A stretch of DNA of 64,000 nt from Thermoplasmata archaeon (GTDB lineage Archaea; Thermoplasmatota; Thermoplasmata; Sysuiplasmatales; Sysuiplasmataceae). Under the pieces are notes generated by a model. That model had not been told where the DNA came from. It was given only the letters and a program-made list of their open reading frames with translations, and ran no database searches. Positions 8,911-53,362 of this stretch are shown here, piece after piece. The stretch spans positions 62,001-126,000 of the forward strand of contig JAJZXY010000002.1 of NCBI GenBank assembly GCA_021806165.1, given 5' to 3'. Within the stretch, counting starts at the first letter, position 1. Each line of letters begins with the position of its first letter. A program made the translations under genes and the position numbers.

Positions 8911-9933
8911 ATGAGGGGCGGCATATGCCTTGGCGGCACATTCAACACAATACATGATGGGCACATGTCCATGCTCAGGCTTGCATTCAGACTGGGCGGA
9001 AAGGTGTACATAGGGCTTACATCGGACGCAATGGCGCTGGGGTCGAGGAGTGCAGTCATACCATATGCCAGGAGACTCGCTGCCCTCAGGAGGGCGTGCT
9101 CCAGGCTGGGCAGAAACTATGAAATAATGATGCTGGACGAACCTTACGGCTATTCCACCCGGATAAGGAAGCTGTCAGGCATCGTTGTATCAGAGGCGAC
9201 CGCCTTCAGGGTAGAGGAGATAAATAAAATCCGCTCTGGCAGGGGATATCAGGCGCTGAAGGCACATGTGGTCCCCCTCATACGCTCCTTCAACGGCCTC
9301 CCTCTCAGCTCCACAAGGGTCATTGCAGGGGATTGTGACAGGAAGGGCCGCCTCACGAGGAGGCTCAGGATCGGAATAGGGTCATCGAACAGGAACAAGT
9401 CAGGTGCGGTGCGGGATGTCTTCCGCCTTTACAGGAGGGAGATTGGAGACCCTGTCTTCCGCACATGCTCGCCCGACTCCGGTGTTCCGGAGCAGCCATT
9501 CGAGAAGGAGACTGTGGCAGGCGCGGCAGCGAGGGCGATGGCCGCAGCCGAGGGCAACGATTTGGGCATAGGTATTGAGGCGGGCCTCTTCAGGTCCGAG
9601 GAGCTGCATGCTGTCTTCGACGTGCAGTACTGCGTGATACTGGACAGGGCGGGCCGCATGACCTCCGGCCATGGAATGGGATTTGCCTATCCGCCCGCAG
9701 TCCTGGACGGAGTGGCAAGGGGAATGTCGGTGGGTGAAATCATGTCCGAGATCACGGGCATAGACGGCATAGGTGCCAGGGGCGGGGCGATAGGCTACCT
9801 CTCCCGCGGCAGGATGAACAGGAGGGAGCTGACAAGGCAGGCTGTGCTATCCGCCCTCCTGCCAAGGCTCAATCCGCATCTGTACACATCCCTTCCCGGG
9901 AGCACCGGGCCGTTCGAGGAAGTTAAGCGCTGA
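8911..9933 (+). CDS. coaD: Fusion of archaeal phosphopantetheine adenylyltransferase and DUF84 inosine/xanthosine triphosphatase
   Basis: Residues 1 to about 148 are an archaeal-type PPAT, which makes dephospho-CoA from 4'-phosphopantetheine and ATP: GGTFNTIHDGHMSML contains the nucleotidyltransferase TxxH/HxGH-type motif, and GLPLSSTRVIAG the downstream ST-R site. Residues from about 151 (LRIGIGSSNRNKSGAV) to about 325 match the DUF84/YjjX inosine-xanthosine triphosphatase family, with GIGIEAGLF and YCVILDRAGR. A shared DUF84 role would be cleansing of ITP/XTP. GTP-dependent dephospho-CoA kinase, the next CoA step, is encoded at 25718. The last 6 bp overlap the antisense tRNA-Ser gene. Confidence 0.88.
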   Translation: MRGGICLGGTFNTIHDGHMSMLRLAFRLGGKVYIGLTSDAMALGSRSAVIPYARRLAALRRACSRLGRNYEIMMLDEPYGYSTRIRKLSGIVVSEATAFRVEEINKIRSGRGYQALKAHVVPLIRSFNGLPLSSTRVIAGDCDRKGRLTRRLRIGIGSSNRNKSGAVRDVFRLYRREIGDPVFRTCSPDSGVPEQPFEKETVAGAAARAMAAAEGNDLGIGIEAGLFRSEELHAVFDVQYCVILDRAGRMTSGHGMGFAYPPAVLDGVARGMSVGEIMSEITGIDGIGARGGAIGYLSRGRMNRRELTRQAVLSALLPRLNPHLYTSLPGSTGPFEEVKR

Positions 9934-10026
9934 GGGGGAGATTCGAACTCCCGAGTCGCAGAGCGACACCGGCTATCCTGACGGATCTCAAGGCCGGCGC
10001 CTTGAACCGGGCTTAGCTACCTCAGC
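9928..10026 (-). tRNA. tRNA-Ser(UGA) with a 12-nt anticodon-loop intron
   Basis: Reverse strand reads acceptor GCTGAGG pairing with CCTCAGC, an anticodon stem CCGGC/GCCGG, a long variable arm (GTCGC TCT GCGAC) typical of Ser, and T-arm GGGAG TTCGAAT CTCCC, discriminator G. The anticodon stem closes only if 12 nt are removed between positions 37 and 38, giving loop CTTGAGA with anticodon TGA. The 5' end overlaps the pheT stop by 10 bp on the same strand and the 3' end overlaps the antisense coaD-fusion stop by 6 bp. Confidence 0.93.
9975..9986 (-). other. tRNA-Ser(UGA) intron, 12 nt, position 37/38
   Basis: The precursor folds as a bulge-helix-bulge: outer helix CCGGC/GCCGG, central helix CTTG/CAGG (one T-G pair), bulges AGA and ATA. 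Cleavage after the second base of each bulge removes ATCCGTCAGGAT and restores a 7-base anticodon loop. Confidence 0.85.
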
Positions 10027-16339: not shown

Positions 16340-18919
16340 ATGCACGGTCCGGGAAAATGGTTGTCAAGGGAGCTGAGGGAGCCCCTTTTCGGATGGTATG
16401 CTCCAGTCATCTTCACTATTGCGGCAGCCTCCCTTTCGTTCATACTGCCTCAGCAGTTTGTCAACATGTATGGCATACATCTTGCAATCTTTGCCTATGC
16501 CTTTTCCGCTTCCGTTCTCACCGCCTCGGCTGTCCTGTATTTCAGGCGATGGCTGTCCAAGAAGTCTCCCGTGCTTCTGGTCGCGTTCTTTATCATCGTG
16601 CAGGCCCTGATTTGGGAAGCATTCCTTTCTGCAACGCTGATGGCGGATTCGCCATCATCTCTCCCCACAAATAACTGGCTCTTCATCTCGCTGATCACCT
16701 ATTTCGTCTTTGCAGAGTCGTTCGATCTGGTCGTCGGCTATGCAATGCTGGGCTGGATATCGAGGGCGAAAGGTGTTCAGCTGGCGGCACTGGCCACGCT
16801 GCTGACTGCCTTCAGGATATCCGTCATGTCACTGATTGTCCTGAATGGGCACCCCTTTTTCATATCAATCATCCTGATTCTCCACAGCCTGCCGCTCTCT
16901 GATATGGTGATGGCTCTGGGACTCGCGAGCGTGATTGCCTATATGGTGCTTCACAAGCGCATATCGGGCCCAGACATCCACAAGACCACAGTCGGCATAG
17001 GCGCATTCCTGCTGCTGATCTGCGCCGCCCTGCTTGTCTACCGATTCGGTGTGCAGGGAGCCGGATGGACTCAGGTGCTTGCGGGTGCAATGGTCACCTC
17101 CGCCATCGTCTTTCCCTTCTGGGGAATCGTACTGCAGGACGAAGGGGAGAAGAGGAGCACAATCAGGCTTATGAAAATGCTGAACAGCTACAGGCCCGGG
17201 CTGGATTCAGTGCAGGCCGAACGGTCTGACCTCGGGCCGCAGAACACGGGCCTGGCGCTGCTCTCCGTATCATTTCCGGGCTCTGTCTCATTCACATACA
17301 GGTCCTCTGACTGCAGGAACTGGAAACTTGTAAACTCATTCTCAGACAGAGGCGGCCGCACACCCTCTGGGAGTTTCACATGCGACATGAGCAGCCGCTT
17401 CAGGGTGGGGGAGCAGATAACACTTCTGAGCAGCAAACCGGGCGACGCAATGCTGCTCTCAGGTGCTGTAGGCGGTGAATTCCTTGCTATGCTCTTTATG
17501 CCCGCGGACGGCGAATTCGAGATCATGGGTGTCGCCCGTCCTGTAGGCTCCGGATGGGAGACCTCAGAGATATCATTCATTCACAACCTGTCATGGCTCA
17601 TCAGGTCCGAGGCTCTTTCATACGAGCTTTCGGAGAGGCAGCGCATGATGACGCTGAGGCTGCTGACACTCGTGGAGACGACGAGAAGGCTGATCGGCGC
17701 AAAAAGCATGGAATCGCTGTATGACACCGCCTGCGAGATTGTAACCGAGAGGCTCGGGTACAGTGATGCAAGCATCTGGGTAAACCTGGATTCCGGCGGC
17801 CTCAGGCTCGAGGCCTGGCGCTTCGACGACAGCATATCACCGCCGGAGGTTAAAGGCACAACGCTTCCGCCGGGCAGGGGAATAGTGGGAAGGTGCGCTC
17901 AGATGATGACATCGCATCTGGCCAGGGATGTCACATCAGACCCGCACTATGTAACGATATTCGCAAACAGGACGAGGAGCGAGTTTGCTGTACCGGTTGT
18001 TGCAGACGGCAGCTGCATCGCCGTGCTCGACGTCGAATCCAGCAGGGAGGATGACTTTGACACAAGTGATGTCCAGGTCCTTAGCATTGTCTCGGACATC
18101 ATTGCCATGTCCTGGAAGAATCTGACGCTGTACGAGGGCATCAGCGCAAGCCAGAAGGCGTCTGAAATAAGGGCCAACATACTCGCACACGACCTGAAGA
18201 ACATGTTCCAGCCCATATCAATCAACATGGCAATTCTCAAGGCGAGGATCGGGACAGGCGTACCGCTGTCGGGGGATGACCTGAAGCTTATAGAAAGCAC
18301 CACTGCATCCATAGACAATGCAAGCAGGTTTGTTAACGGCATACTGCAGCTTGTAAGGCTCGGCAACTCCAGCAGCGCGAAGCCGAAGAGGATGAGCCTT
18401 CAGGCGGTCATTGGAAGCGCATCCTCCACGGTTACATCCACCTTCTCCAACAGGGATGTATTGATAGAAACAAGGTTCGACGCACCGTCCCCTGACGTCC
18501 TGGGAACGGAGCTTCTGGAGGAGGTCTTTGTGAACCTGTTCACCAATTCAATCAAGTACAATGGTTCGGAGAAGGTCAGGATTCTGGTTACAGGCGGTAA
18601 GGGATGCGGCTCGGATGAAGGCAAGGTTGTCGTTGGGGTTTCGGACAACGGCACAGGAATCCCCCCTGAAAGGATTCCCACACTGTTCGACAGGTTCAGT
18701 GCAAGCTCCTCAGGAAGCGGCATAGGCCTCTCACTCGTCCGTGGCATAGTCGAAAGCATCGGAGGCAGCATTGAGGCTAGCCCCAGGGGAGAGGGCAAAT
18801 GGAGCGGGGCGCATTTCACGCTGATGCTTCCCGGGGCGCCGCCTCAGCACAGACCGGGACGCACGAAGGCAGACGGAGACATAGCCCCTGGCATCCCATT
18901 CCGGCGACCTTCAAGATAG
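16340..18919 (+). CDS. Multi-pass membrane sensor histidine kinase with GAF domain
   Basis: An 859-residue hybrid. Residues about 18-268 form some eight membrane helices of no family I recognise; then a poorly conserved stretch to about 430, a GAF domain (about 445-595; GIVGRCAQMMTSHLARDV, FAVPVVADGSCIAVLDVES), a HisKA-like dimerisation helix with H-box ILAHDLKNMFQPI (His about residue 617), and a HATPase domain with N-box NLFTNSIKYN, G1 DNGTGIPPERIP and G2 GSGIGLSLV. No receiver domain and no response regulator next to it. The start follows a GGAGG Shine-Dalgarno. Signal unknown; membrane or GAF-ligand sensing is inferred. Confidence 0.88.
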   Translation: MHGPGKWLSRELREPLFGWYAPVIFTIAAASLSFILPQQFVNMYGIHLAIFAYAFSASVLTASAVLYFRRWLSKKSPVLLVAFFIIVQALIWEAFLSATLMADSPSSLPTNNWLFISLITYFVFAESFDLVVGYAMLGWISRAKGVQLAALATLLTAFRISVMSLIVLNGHPFFISIILILHSLPLSDMVMALGLASVIAYMVLHKRISGPDIHKTTVGIGAFLLLICAALLVYRFGVQGAGWTQVLAGAMVTSAIVFPFWGIVLQDEGEKRSTIRLMKMLNSYRPGLDSVQAERSDLGPQNTGLALLSVSFPGSVSFTYRSSDCRNWKLVNSFSDRGGRTPSGSFTCDMSSRFRVGEQITLLSSKPGDAMLLSGAVGGEFLAMLFMPADGEFEIMGVARPVGSGWETSEISFIHNLSWLIRSEALSYELSERQRMMTLRLLTLVETTRRLIGAKSMESLYDTACEIVTERLGYSDASIWVNLDSGGLRLEAWRFDDSISPPEVKGTTLPPGRGIVGRCAQMMTSHLARDVTSDPHYVTIFANRTRSEFAVPVVADGSCIAVLDVESSREDDFDTSDVQVLSIVSDIIAMSWKNLTLYEGISASQKASEIRANILAHDLKNMFQPISINMAILKARIGTGVPLSGDDLKLIESTTASIDNASRFVNGILQLVRLGNSSSAKPKRMSLQAVIGSASSTVTSTFSNRDVLIETRFDAPSPDVLGTELLEEVFVNLFTNSIKYNGSEKVRILVTGGKGCGSDEGKVVVGVSDNGTGIPPERIPTLFDRFSASSSGSGIGLSLVRGIVESIGGSIEASPRGEGKWSGAHFTLMLPGAPPQHRPGRTKADGDIAPGIPFRRPSR

Positions 18920-26755: not shown

Positions 26756-26920
26756 ATGGCAAAGGGTTCCAAAAGTGCATTTTACGAGATAGCCGACGGC
26801 AAGATCAACAGGACGCGAAGGACATGCCCCAAATGCGGGCCGGGTGTCTTCCTTGCAAAGCACAAGGGCAGACTCTCGTGCGGCAAGTGCGGCTACGCGG
26901 AATTCGACAAGAAGGTATAG
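26756..26920 (+). CDS. rps27ae: Small-subunit ribosomal protein eS31 (S27ae)
   Basis: A 54-residue zinc-binding 30S protein. The reading frame begins [20 protein letters not shown] and has the four zinc cysteines in TCPKCGPG and [10 protein letters not shown], ending DKKV. It follows rps24e by 5 nt in one operon, the usual archaeal pair. Confidence 0.95.
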
Positions 26921-26954: not shown

Positions 26955-27018
26955 CCGCCCTCCTGATGCTCAGGGATGCGGGCCTGTAGTGTAGTTTGGA
27001 TATCACAGGGGCCTCCGG

Positions 27019-27033
27019 TTAATGTCAGGAGAA
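27019..27033 (+). other. tRNA-Arg intron 1, 15 nt, position 37/38
   Basis: Outer helix GGGGC/GCCCC, central helix CTCC/GGAG, bulges GGT and AAA: a canonical bulge-helix-bulge with fully paired 4-bp centre. Cutting after the second base of each bulge removes TTAATGTCAGGAGAA. Confidence 0.88.
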
Positions 27034-27054
27034 AGCCCCTGACCCGGGTTCAAA

Positions 27055-27074
27055 AAACATCAGTGTATTGAAAT
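27055..27074 (+). other. tRNA-Arg intron 2, 20 nt, T-loop position 59/60
   Basis: Outer helix CCGGG/CCCGG is the T-stem itself, central helix TTCA/TGAA, bulges AAA and ATT. Cutting after the second base of each bulge removes 20 nt and restores TTCAAAT exactly. Confidence 0.85.
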
Positions 27075-27157
27075 TCCCGGCAGGCCCGTTTTGCCTTAGG
27101 CCGCCCATGCATCAAGGGCAAAAAGCTATTGTAACTGGGAAGGCATCTCGCATCAGG

Positions 27158-34551: not shown

Positions 34552-35160
34552 TCAGTGTCCGTTGTCAAGAAGCCAGTTGACTATGACTATACACTGGTCT
34601 GACTGCTGGCTGATCGTGGAGATGGATGTGTGCCGCGGGGAAAATGCCTCCACCTGATCAGCCTCCTCCCGACTGAGGTCAAGGCTGTCACCCAGCACAA
34701 AGAGCGAAGGCTGTTCAAGACCCACTGCCATTCGGCCATCCTCCTCGAGCAGGTGGACATTGCAGCCGGAAGCCATGATGGAGAGGAGTTCAGGAAGGGT
34801 CCTCTCCGAATAACTGATGCCAGGGCTCGCCTCACCCTCTCCTCCCCCTCTGGCCTTCACAAGCGCATTGCGCAGGAGAGCAGCGGTGCTCCTCTCGTCG
34901 GGGTTCAGATACTTCACGCTTCCCCCGCTGATTATTACGGACCTGCCGCCTACAGTTCCAGATCCGAAGTATATTGCTATGGAAGCGTCCTTGCGTATCG
35001 CATTTGACACAAGGAGTGCAGAAGAGACGCACCTCGCAAGCACATCCACCCTGCCTCCGCTGCCTGGAAGATCGTTAAGGCTGAAATCGCCATCCGTGGG
35101 CGTCCTGTGAGACACGACGAGGAAGCGTCTGCTCCCAAGCGGCTGCATATCACTCCTCAT
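34552..35160 (-). CDS. trmY: tRNA pseudouridine-54 N1-methyltransferase
   Basis: SPOUT methyltransferase that makes m1-pseudouridine at position 54 of the T-loop of archaeal tRNAs. The 202-residue protein has RRFLVVSHRTPTDGDFSLND, LPGSGGRVDVLARCVSSALL, the SAM knot region SLFVLGDSLDLSREE, and the C-terminal IVNWLLDN. It overlaps the srp54 3' end by 11 bp and is co-transcribed with it. Confidence 0.93.
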   Translation of the reverse strand: MRSDMQPLGSRRFLVVSHRTPTDGDFSLNDLPGSGGRVDVLARCVSSALLVSNAIRKDASIAIYFGSGTVGGRSVIISGGSVKYLNPDERSTAALLRNALVKARGGGEGEASPGISYSERTLPELLSIMASGCNVHLLEEDGRMAVGLEQPSLFVLGDSLDLSREEADQVEAFSPRHTSISTISQQSDQCIVIVNWLLDNGH

Positions 35161-53263: not shown

Positions 53264-53362
53264 CGCCGAGGGGGAGATTTGAACTCCCGTGGTGCGGAGC
53301 ACCAGTGGCTGACCCTGGATATCACTCGAGGCCACCGCCTTACCGGGCTGAGCTACCTCGGC
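53264..53362 (-). tRNA. tRNA-Ser(CGA) with a 14-nt anticodon-loop intron
   Basis: Reverse strand: acceptor GCCGAGG/CCTCGGC with discriminator G, long Ser-type variable arm GGTGC TCC GCACC, T-arm GGGAG TTCAAAT CTCCC. The anticodon stem GTGGC/GCCAC closes after removal of 14 nt between positions 37 and 38, giving loop CTCGAGA and anticodon CGA. Related to the tRNA-Ser(UGA) gene in body sequence and intron position. Confidence 0.92.
53311..53324 (-). other. tRNA-Ser(CGA) intron, 14 nt, position 37/38
   Basis: Outer helix GTGGC/GCCAC, bulges AGT and TCA, central helix CTCG/AGGG with three pairs (one T-G) and one G-A mismatch, so a slightly relaxed bulge-helix-bulge. Confidence 0.78.

Follow-up and report, generated by a model that had tools for sequence, protein, structure and literature searches.

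Introns at position 59/60 of tRNA genes, in the T-loop, are known in archaea, chiefly in Crenarchaeota (PMC4090602). Thermoproteales, among other Crenarchaeota, have non-canonical bulge-helix-bulge (BHB) introns at 59/60 and elsewhere (Sugahara 2008, reviewed in PMC4090602). Multi-intron tRNAs have been reported from Crenarchaeota, Nanoarchaeum, Methanopyrus, Methanothermobacter, Korarchaeum, and ARMAN (PMC4033280), and in tRNAscan-SE 2.0 non-canonical introns are found mainly in Crenarchaeota and Thaumarchaeota (PMC8450103). Such introns accompany splicing endonucleases (EndA) bearing a CSL or ASL (PMC6379350, PMC12397907). Euryarchaeota with alpha4 or alpha'2 enzymes are described as having single canonical introns only (PMC4090602); the alpha'2 type has been termed narrow (PMC6379350) and is said to be without ASL-like loops (PMC12397907), and the alpha'2 enzymes of Ferroplasma and Archaeoglobus are homodimers that cut strict BHB motifs (PMC8707768, PMC6379350). 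A literature search that took in few subscription papers found no paper on T-loop introns of Thermoplasmata; GtRNAdb may list some. The original prediction for the locus described here had also placed T-loop introns mostly elsewhere, in agreement with the literature, which gives Cren-, Nano-, and Thaumarchaeota (PMC4090602, PMC4033280, PMC8450103).

The locus lies in a stretch of 64,000 nt (contig C20:62001-126000, here “the window”) of a 1.88 Mb assembly of 33 contigs, 95.9% complete. The genome had been described as Thermoplasmata-like, which is correct: it belongs to the Candidatus Sysuiplasma family, of which another member, Candidatus Sysuiplasma superficiale YP2-bin.285, has the same tRNA-Arg(CCG) gene. 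The features discussed below, in window coordinates, are:

26800..26919, + strand: ribosomal protein S27ae, C-terminal part, directly upstream of the tRNA-Arg(CCG) gene
26980..27088, + strand: tRNA-Arg(CCG) gene, 109 nt unspliced and 74 nt mature; six relatives have the same two introns
26980..27018, + strand: exon 1, positions 1-37 (acceptor 5′ strand, D-arm, anticodon CCG)
27019..27033, + strand: canonical intron at 37/38, 15 nt, with small changes across the family
27013-27016 and 27028-27031, + strand: central helix of the 37/38 intron, CTCC/GGAG
27017-27019 and 27032-27034, + strand: bulges of the 37/38 intron, GGT and AAA
27034..27054, + strand: exon 2, positions 38-59 (anticodon 3′ strand, variable loop, T-stem 5′ strand, TTCAAA)
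27055..27074, + strand: T-loop intron at 59/60, 20 nt
27049-27052 and 27069-27072, + strand: central helix of the T-loop intron, TTCA/TGAA
27053-27055 and 27073-27075, + strand: bulges of the T-loop intron, AAA and ATT
27075..27088, + strand: exon 3 (T60, T-stem 3′ strand, acceptor 3′ strand, discriminator G73)
34561..35130, - strand: TrmY (PF04013), tRNA position-54 methyltransferase
9927-10026, - strand: tRNA-Ser(TGA), with a short canonical intron
53264-53362, - strand: tRNA-Ser(CGA), with a short canonical intron

The tRNA-Arg(CCG) locus was not detected by ARAGORN or Rfam RF00005 over the window, and ARAGORN called no tRNA on the unspliced gene. A script of our own, which enumerates 3-4-3 BHB motifs, removes combinations of them, and scores the resulting cloverleaf, independently chose the same two introns that had been proposed, a 15-nt one following position 37 and a 20-nt one following position 59; the proposed structure is right to the base. 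Their removal leaves a 74-nt tRNA with anticodon CCG, whose cloverleaf score (33.6) resembles the values of about 30-35 obtained for the genome's other tRNAs, and which ARAGORN recognizes, only once spliced, as tRNA-Arg(ccg). The anticodon loop CTCCGGA and T-loop TTCAAAT are restored as the original prediction had them. Both introns form 3-4-3 BHB motifs with 0 mismatches in either 4-bp central helix, again as proposed, and both hairpins appear when the precursor is folded to minimum energy without constraints. In the source genome a run of A residues would also permit a 5-bp version of the T-loop central helix, and this intron has a weak internal helix, in which 1 bp is followed by a bulged A and a further 3 bp (those of relatives are stronger), so it is the relatives that fix the exact 5′ cut.

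In a BLAST search of the gene against 60 relatives, both introns were found in 6/6 family relatives in which the gene was present, as in the source (together G000-G006), with differing intron sequences. Outside the family, orthologues in the BLAST set have both introns, just one of them (T-loop or 37/38), or none. The T-loop intron stands alone in G042 (L049), three introns (D-loop, 37/38, and T-loop) are present in G031 and G021 (L062, L167), and the intron-free genes of G024 (L051) and G037 (L052) have a normal T-loop. The gene for ribosomal protein S27ae is a neighbor in several relatives, intron-bearing and intron-free alike, which supports the orthology of the two kinds. Two species of one genus differ (G026 with, G044 without), so introns have been gained or lost.

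The structure is preserved while the intron sequence varies, more than expected by chance. In an alignment of 14 related tRNAs with T-loop introns, pairing of the central helix is 100%; T-loop bases 54-57 pair with the intron in 14/14, changes between A and G at 57 being matched by T or C in the intron, and in the intron-internal helix 5/5 pairs have changed on both sides. The covariation score for these 14 is 0.371, vs. 0.124 for shuffled alignments (0/500 shuffles as high); for 40 T-arm segments it is 0.630 vs. 0.174 (again 0/500). These observations bear on whether the T-loop insert might be retained, giving a mature tRNA with an enlarged T-arm. The helix does lengthen the T-stem, and an extended hairpin could therefore fold, but what is conserved is the BHB geometry of two 3-nt bulges and a 4-bp helix rather than a continuous stem; T54-A57 would be locked in pairs and the elbow abolished, and the syntenic intron-free orthologues (L051, L052) have an ordinary T-loop. 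Retention is barely credible.

The source genome yielded 45 tRNA genes, about 22 of them with at least one intron, mostly at 37/38 (the tRNA-Tyr gene, which the script mis-split, was parsed by eye). D-loop introns occur in three genes, tRNA-Ala(CGC), tRNA-Thr(GGT), and tRNA-Lys(TTT), and T-loop introns also in three, tRNA-Arg(CCG), tRNA-Lys(CTT), and tRNA-Lys(TTT); the D-loop intron that tRNA-Lys(TTT) has in addition is about 30 nt long. Those outside the window are:

L010 39-125: tRNA-Ala(CGC) with a D-loop intron
L066, G000:C26:1861-1964: tRNA-Thr(GGT) with a D-loop intron
G000:C8:8398 onward (L076 149-243) and G000:C19:about 18466-18588, - strand (L077): the two tRNA-Lys genes with T-loop introns

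There is no support for the introns of different tRNAs being copies of each other: the T-loop intron sequences of tRNA-Arg(CCG), tRNA-Lys(CTT), and tRNA-Lys(TTT) differ. An identical tRNA-Ala(CGC) sequence occurs twice, once where a contig ends and once where another begins (C8, C16; L009/L010), probably an assembly overlap joining the two. Neither tRNA-Trp nor one CAT tRNA is among the 45 genes found in this 95.9%-complete assembly.

A second intact tRNA-Arg(CCG) gene, which the original prediction had named as evidence against it, was sought and is not among the 45 genes found in the 95.9%-complete, 33-contig assembly; nor do these include a tRNA-Lys gene without a T-loop intron. As both tRNA-Lys genes found carry such introns, T-loop splicing is probably essential to the cell. 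It might be argued that this is a pseudogene, either decaying or unspliced, with CGG read by another tRNA: an intact tRNA-Arg(TCG) gene is present (L021), and could in principle do so by wobble. This is very improbable, given that every stem is fully paired, that the splice sites restore consensus loops exactly, that the family retains both introns, with compensatory changes, and that the same T-loop intron is present in both tRNA-Lys genes, for neither of which a substitute was found. With high probability, then, this is a working tRNA-Arg(CCG) gene, probably the only one of the genome, whose strict BHB motifs would be spliced by an alpha'2 EndA and RtcB.

A single EndA ORF was found in the source genome, outside the locus (L031:694-1776). 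Its product is a 361-aa fusion of two PF01974 units, which resembles Archaeoglobus fulgidus EndA across both; the catalytic Tyr/His/Lys residues are kept in the C-terminal unit only, the N-terminal one being pseudo-catalytic. Three-unit or heteromeric make-up was not found by a PF01974 search of the genome, which might overlook a very divergent additional subunit. By alignment with Aeropyrum pernix EndA, the CSL position is between YG and LxLS; the source enzyme reads FYGNMIGPG-LQVSMLE there, with 6-7 residues at the site, as also in the carriers scored. Carriers from about 12 families have one alpha'-fused EndA ORF per genome, in none of which is there an insertion at the CSL/ASL site. A Lys-rich stretch (MMKKALKVKSARTGKN) was considered as a possible CSL/ASL analogue and rejected, the CSL being located elsewhere, between YG and LxLS, and M. 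jannaschii EndA having a comparable stretch at the same place. Judged by its sequence, the source EndA is of the alpha'2 type, without broad-specificity (CSL/ASL) features.

The original prediction held that T-loop introns need a broad-specificity endonuclease. This part is not supported: such an enzyme appears to be unneeded, because the only EndA found is an alpha' fusion lacking CSL and ASL and the motif is a strict BHB. An alpha'2 enzyme is compatible with the T-loop intron, given the strict motif and the ability of Ferroplasma alpha'2 EndA to cleave a minimal BHB without mature tRNA (PMC8707768). A real intron might still be cut by a broad-specificity enzyme that has escaped recognition, with a divergent beta subunit or an unfamiliar loop, as the pairing of non-canonical introns with CSL/ASL enzymes in the literature would lead one to expect (PMC6379350, PMC12397907); some canonical introns of the source genome have one mismatch in the central helix, which suggests some tolerance. 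This is improbable, however, with a single alpha'-fused EndA per genome in about 12 families, no insertion at the relevant site, and a Thermoplasmata alpha'2 enzyme known to cut a minimal BHB (PMC8707768).

If splicing by the alpha'2 enzyme is accepted, the transcript would fold into two strict BHB motifs, the first spanning the anticodon loop and the second in the T-loop, where TGAA of the intron would pair with TTCA, the first four T-loop bases. Homodimeric alpha'2 EndA would recognize each BHB as such, cutting both strands behind the second nucleotide of the bulge; RtcB ligase, whose gene is present in the source genome, would join the exons and restore both loops. With the BHB itself as the recognition element, no CSL/ASL loop would be required, and the non-canonical introns of Thermoplasmata are predicted to remain near the strict motif. 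Positions 54-58 of the T-loop are modified by TrmY, Pus10, Trm56, and TrmI. Formation of the D-loop/T-loop elbow and modification at these positions would be possible only once the intron has been removed. It is a sound inference, already made in the original prediction, that TrmY can act only after splicing; because TTCA is paired with the intron beforehand, the enzymes for positions 55-58 should act post-splicing as well.

The distribution of T-loop introns in Thermoplasmata was examined with two covariance models. R1, a model of whole tRNAs, has matches in 399/399 class genomes searched, because it also fits intron-free tRNAs; a spread of its best matches was therefore inspected singly. These contained 74 T-loop introns, in Arg(CCG), Arg(TCT), Arg(TCG), and Lys(CTT) tRNAs, all of them (74/74) at 59/60. 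The central helix is without mismatch in 70/74, a biased figure, since model and parser both presuppose a 3-4-3 BHB at 59/60. R2, which models the intron-bearing T-arm regardless of isotype, has matches at E<=1e-4 in 46/60 sampled Thermoplasmata genomes and 17/22 families, and 53/62 of the matches inspected are complete tRNAs with a 59/60 intron, of nine isotypes (Arg, Lys, Gly, Ser, His, Leu, Pro, Asp, and Glu). R1, R2, and the parser, which all expect a 3-4-3 BHB at 59/60, are blind to relaxed motifs and to other T-loop sites; the 16 carriers in the BLAST set are largely free of this bias. Weaker R2 matches (E about 1e-4 to 1e-2) are partly false, those at L325 and L327 being unparsable as T-loop introns. 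The original prediction had called a T-loop intron unexpected here; with 59/60 introns in most of the sampled Thermoplasmata families, it is not exceptional in the class.

Among the carriers that bear names are Candidatus Methanomethylophilus sp. 1R26, Methanomassiliicoccales RumEn M2, and Candidatus Methanoplasma species; in Methanomethylophilus the 59/60 intron is present in tRNA-Arg(TCT) (L252, L225). By model search, no T-loop introns were found in family f17 (Thermoplasma/Ferroplasma-like, with an EndA of about 290 aa) and almost none in f13; model matches also occur in some genomes from other classes within the phylum. Outside the phylum, a Hermodarchaeota (Asgard) tRNA-Arg(CCT) has both D-loop and T-loop introns (contigs L174, L195, L220). 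Two further T-loop-intron matches, L293 (G016) and L326 (G059), have upstream regions that resemble a long intron with C/D-box-like motifs, and are possibly tRNA-Trp genes.

The combination of a D-loop intron (after nucleotide 21) and a T-loop intron in tRNA-Lys(TTT) occurs in families f1, f3, f7, f10, f16, f19, and f20 (loci L294, L305, L306, L307, L310, L315, L316, and L317), and on the predicted gene structures this double non-canonical arrangement is deeply shared. The T-loop introns of tRNA-Arg(CCG) and tRNA-Lys(TTT), shared over many families, may date from near the base of Thermoplasmata. Introns at 59/60 are widespread in the class and probably old; the Thermoplasma/Ferroplasma branch, which was studied first, would either have lost them or never have acquired them.

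As to origin, T-loop introns might be scars of mobile-element integration, later tuned to BHB motifs. The T-loop is a common attachment site. Its motif TTCGAA is palindromic, so duplication of CGAA alongside it automatically makes a central helix, and integration into tRNA genes duplicates segments of this kind. Integration and introns have been discussed together (PMC4090602). This proposal concerns origin rather than function and is therefore compatible with splicing by the alpha'2 enzyme, but no integrase or element remnants were noticed at the locus, and the introns (16-49 nt) have unrelated sequences, so that such an origin seems unlikely.

The kind of intron is already known; its class-wide spread with a narrow-type enzyme contradicts the rule as written. 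The class, including gut methanogens (Methanomethylophilaceae), departs from the single canonical intron given in reviews, and the reviews' rule of co-evolution between non-canonical introns and a special enzyme loop becomes testable with a small, well-behaved enzyme. Evenly poised is the wider proposal that an alpha'2 enzyme without CSL or ASL supports the spread of D- and T-loop introns throughout the class as long as they keep a strict BHB, the introns perhaps being near-basal. If it is true, a specific loop would go with relaxed motifs rather than with diverse positions, and the diversity of intron positions would be independent of enzyme type. The introns also account for tRNA-Arg and tRNA-Lys genes escaping ordinary tRNA finders in such genomes, and provide a clean case of T-loop modification having to wait for splicing.

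Among described systems, those of Crenarchaeota, and of Thermoproteales in particular, share with this locus the 59/60 site, the BHB logic, and often a 37/38 intron in the same gene. They include relaxed motifs (hBH, HBh′), whereas the Thermoplasmata motifs seen are nearly all strict BHB, and the host here belongs to Thermoplasmatota and has an alpha'2 endonuclease without CSL. ARMAN-2 (Ca. Micrarchaeum), likewise an acid-mine archaeon, has several tRNA introns at non-canonical positions; its enzyme is a three-unit epsilon2 with ASL (PMC12397907), unlike the two-unit alpha' enzyme with no insertion at the site found here. The Asgard Atabeyarchaeia and Freyarchaeia likewise have many tRNAs with non-canonical introns (PMC11291895), in another phylum and with over 90% of tRNAs intron-bearing, compared with about half of the tRNA genes (22/45) here. 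Archaeoglobus fulgidus, Thermoplasma acidophilum, and Ferroplasma have the same alpha'2 class of enzyme, the same cut rule, and the canonical first intron, but these alpha'2 archaea have been described with single canonical introns only, while here there are D-loop and T-loop introns too.
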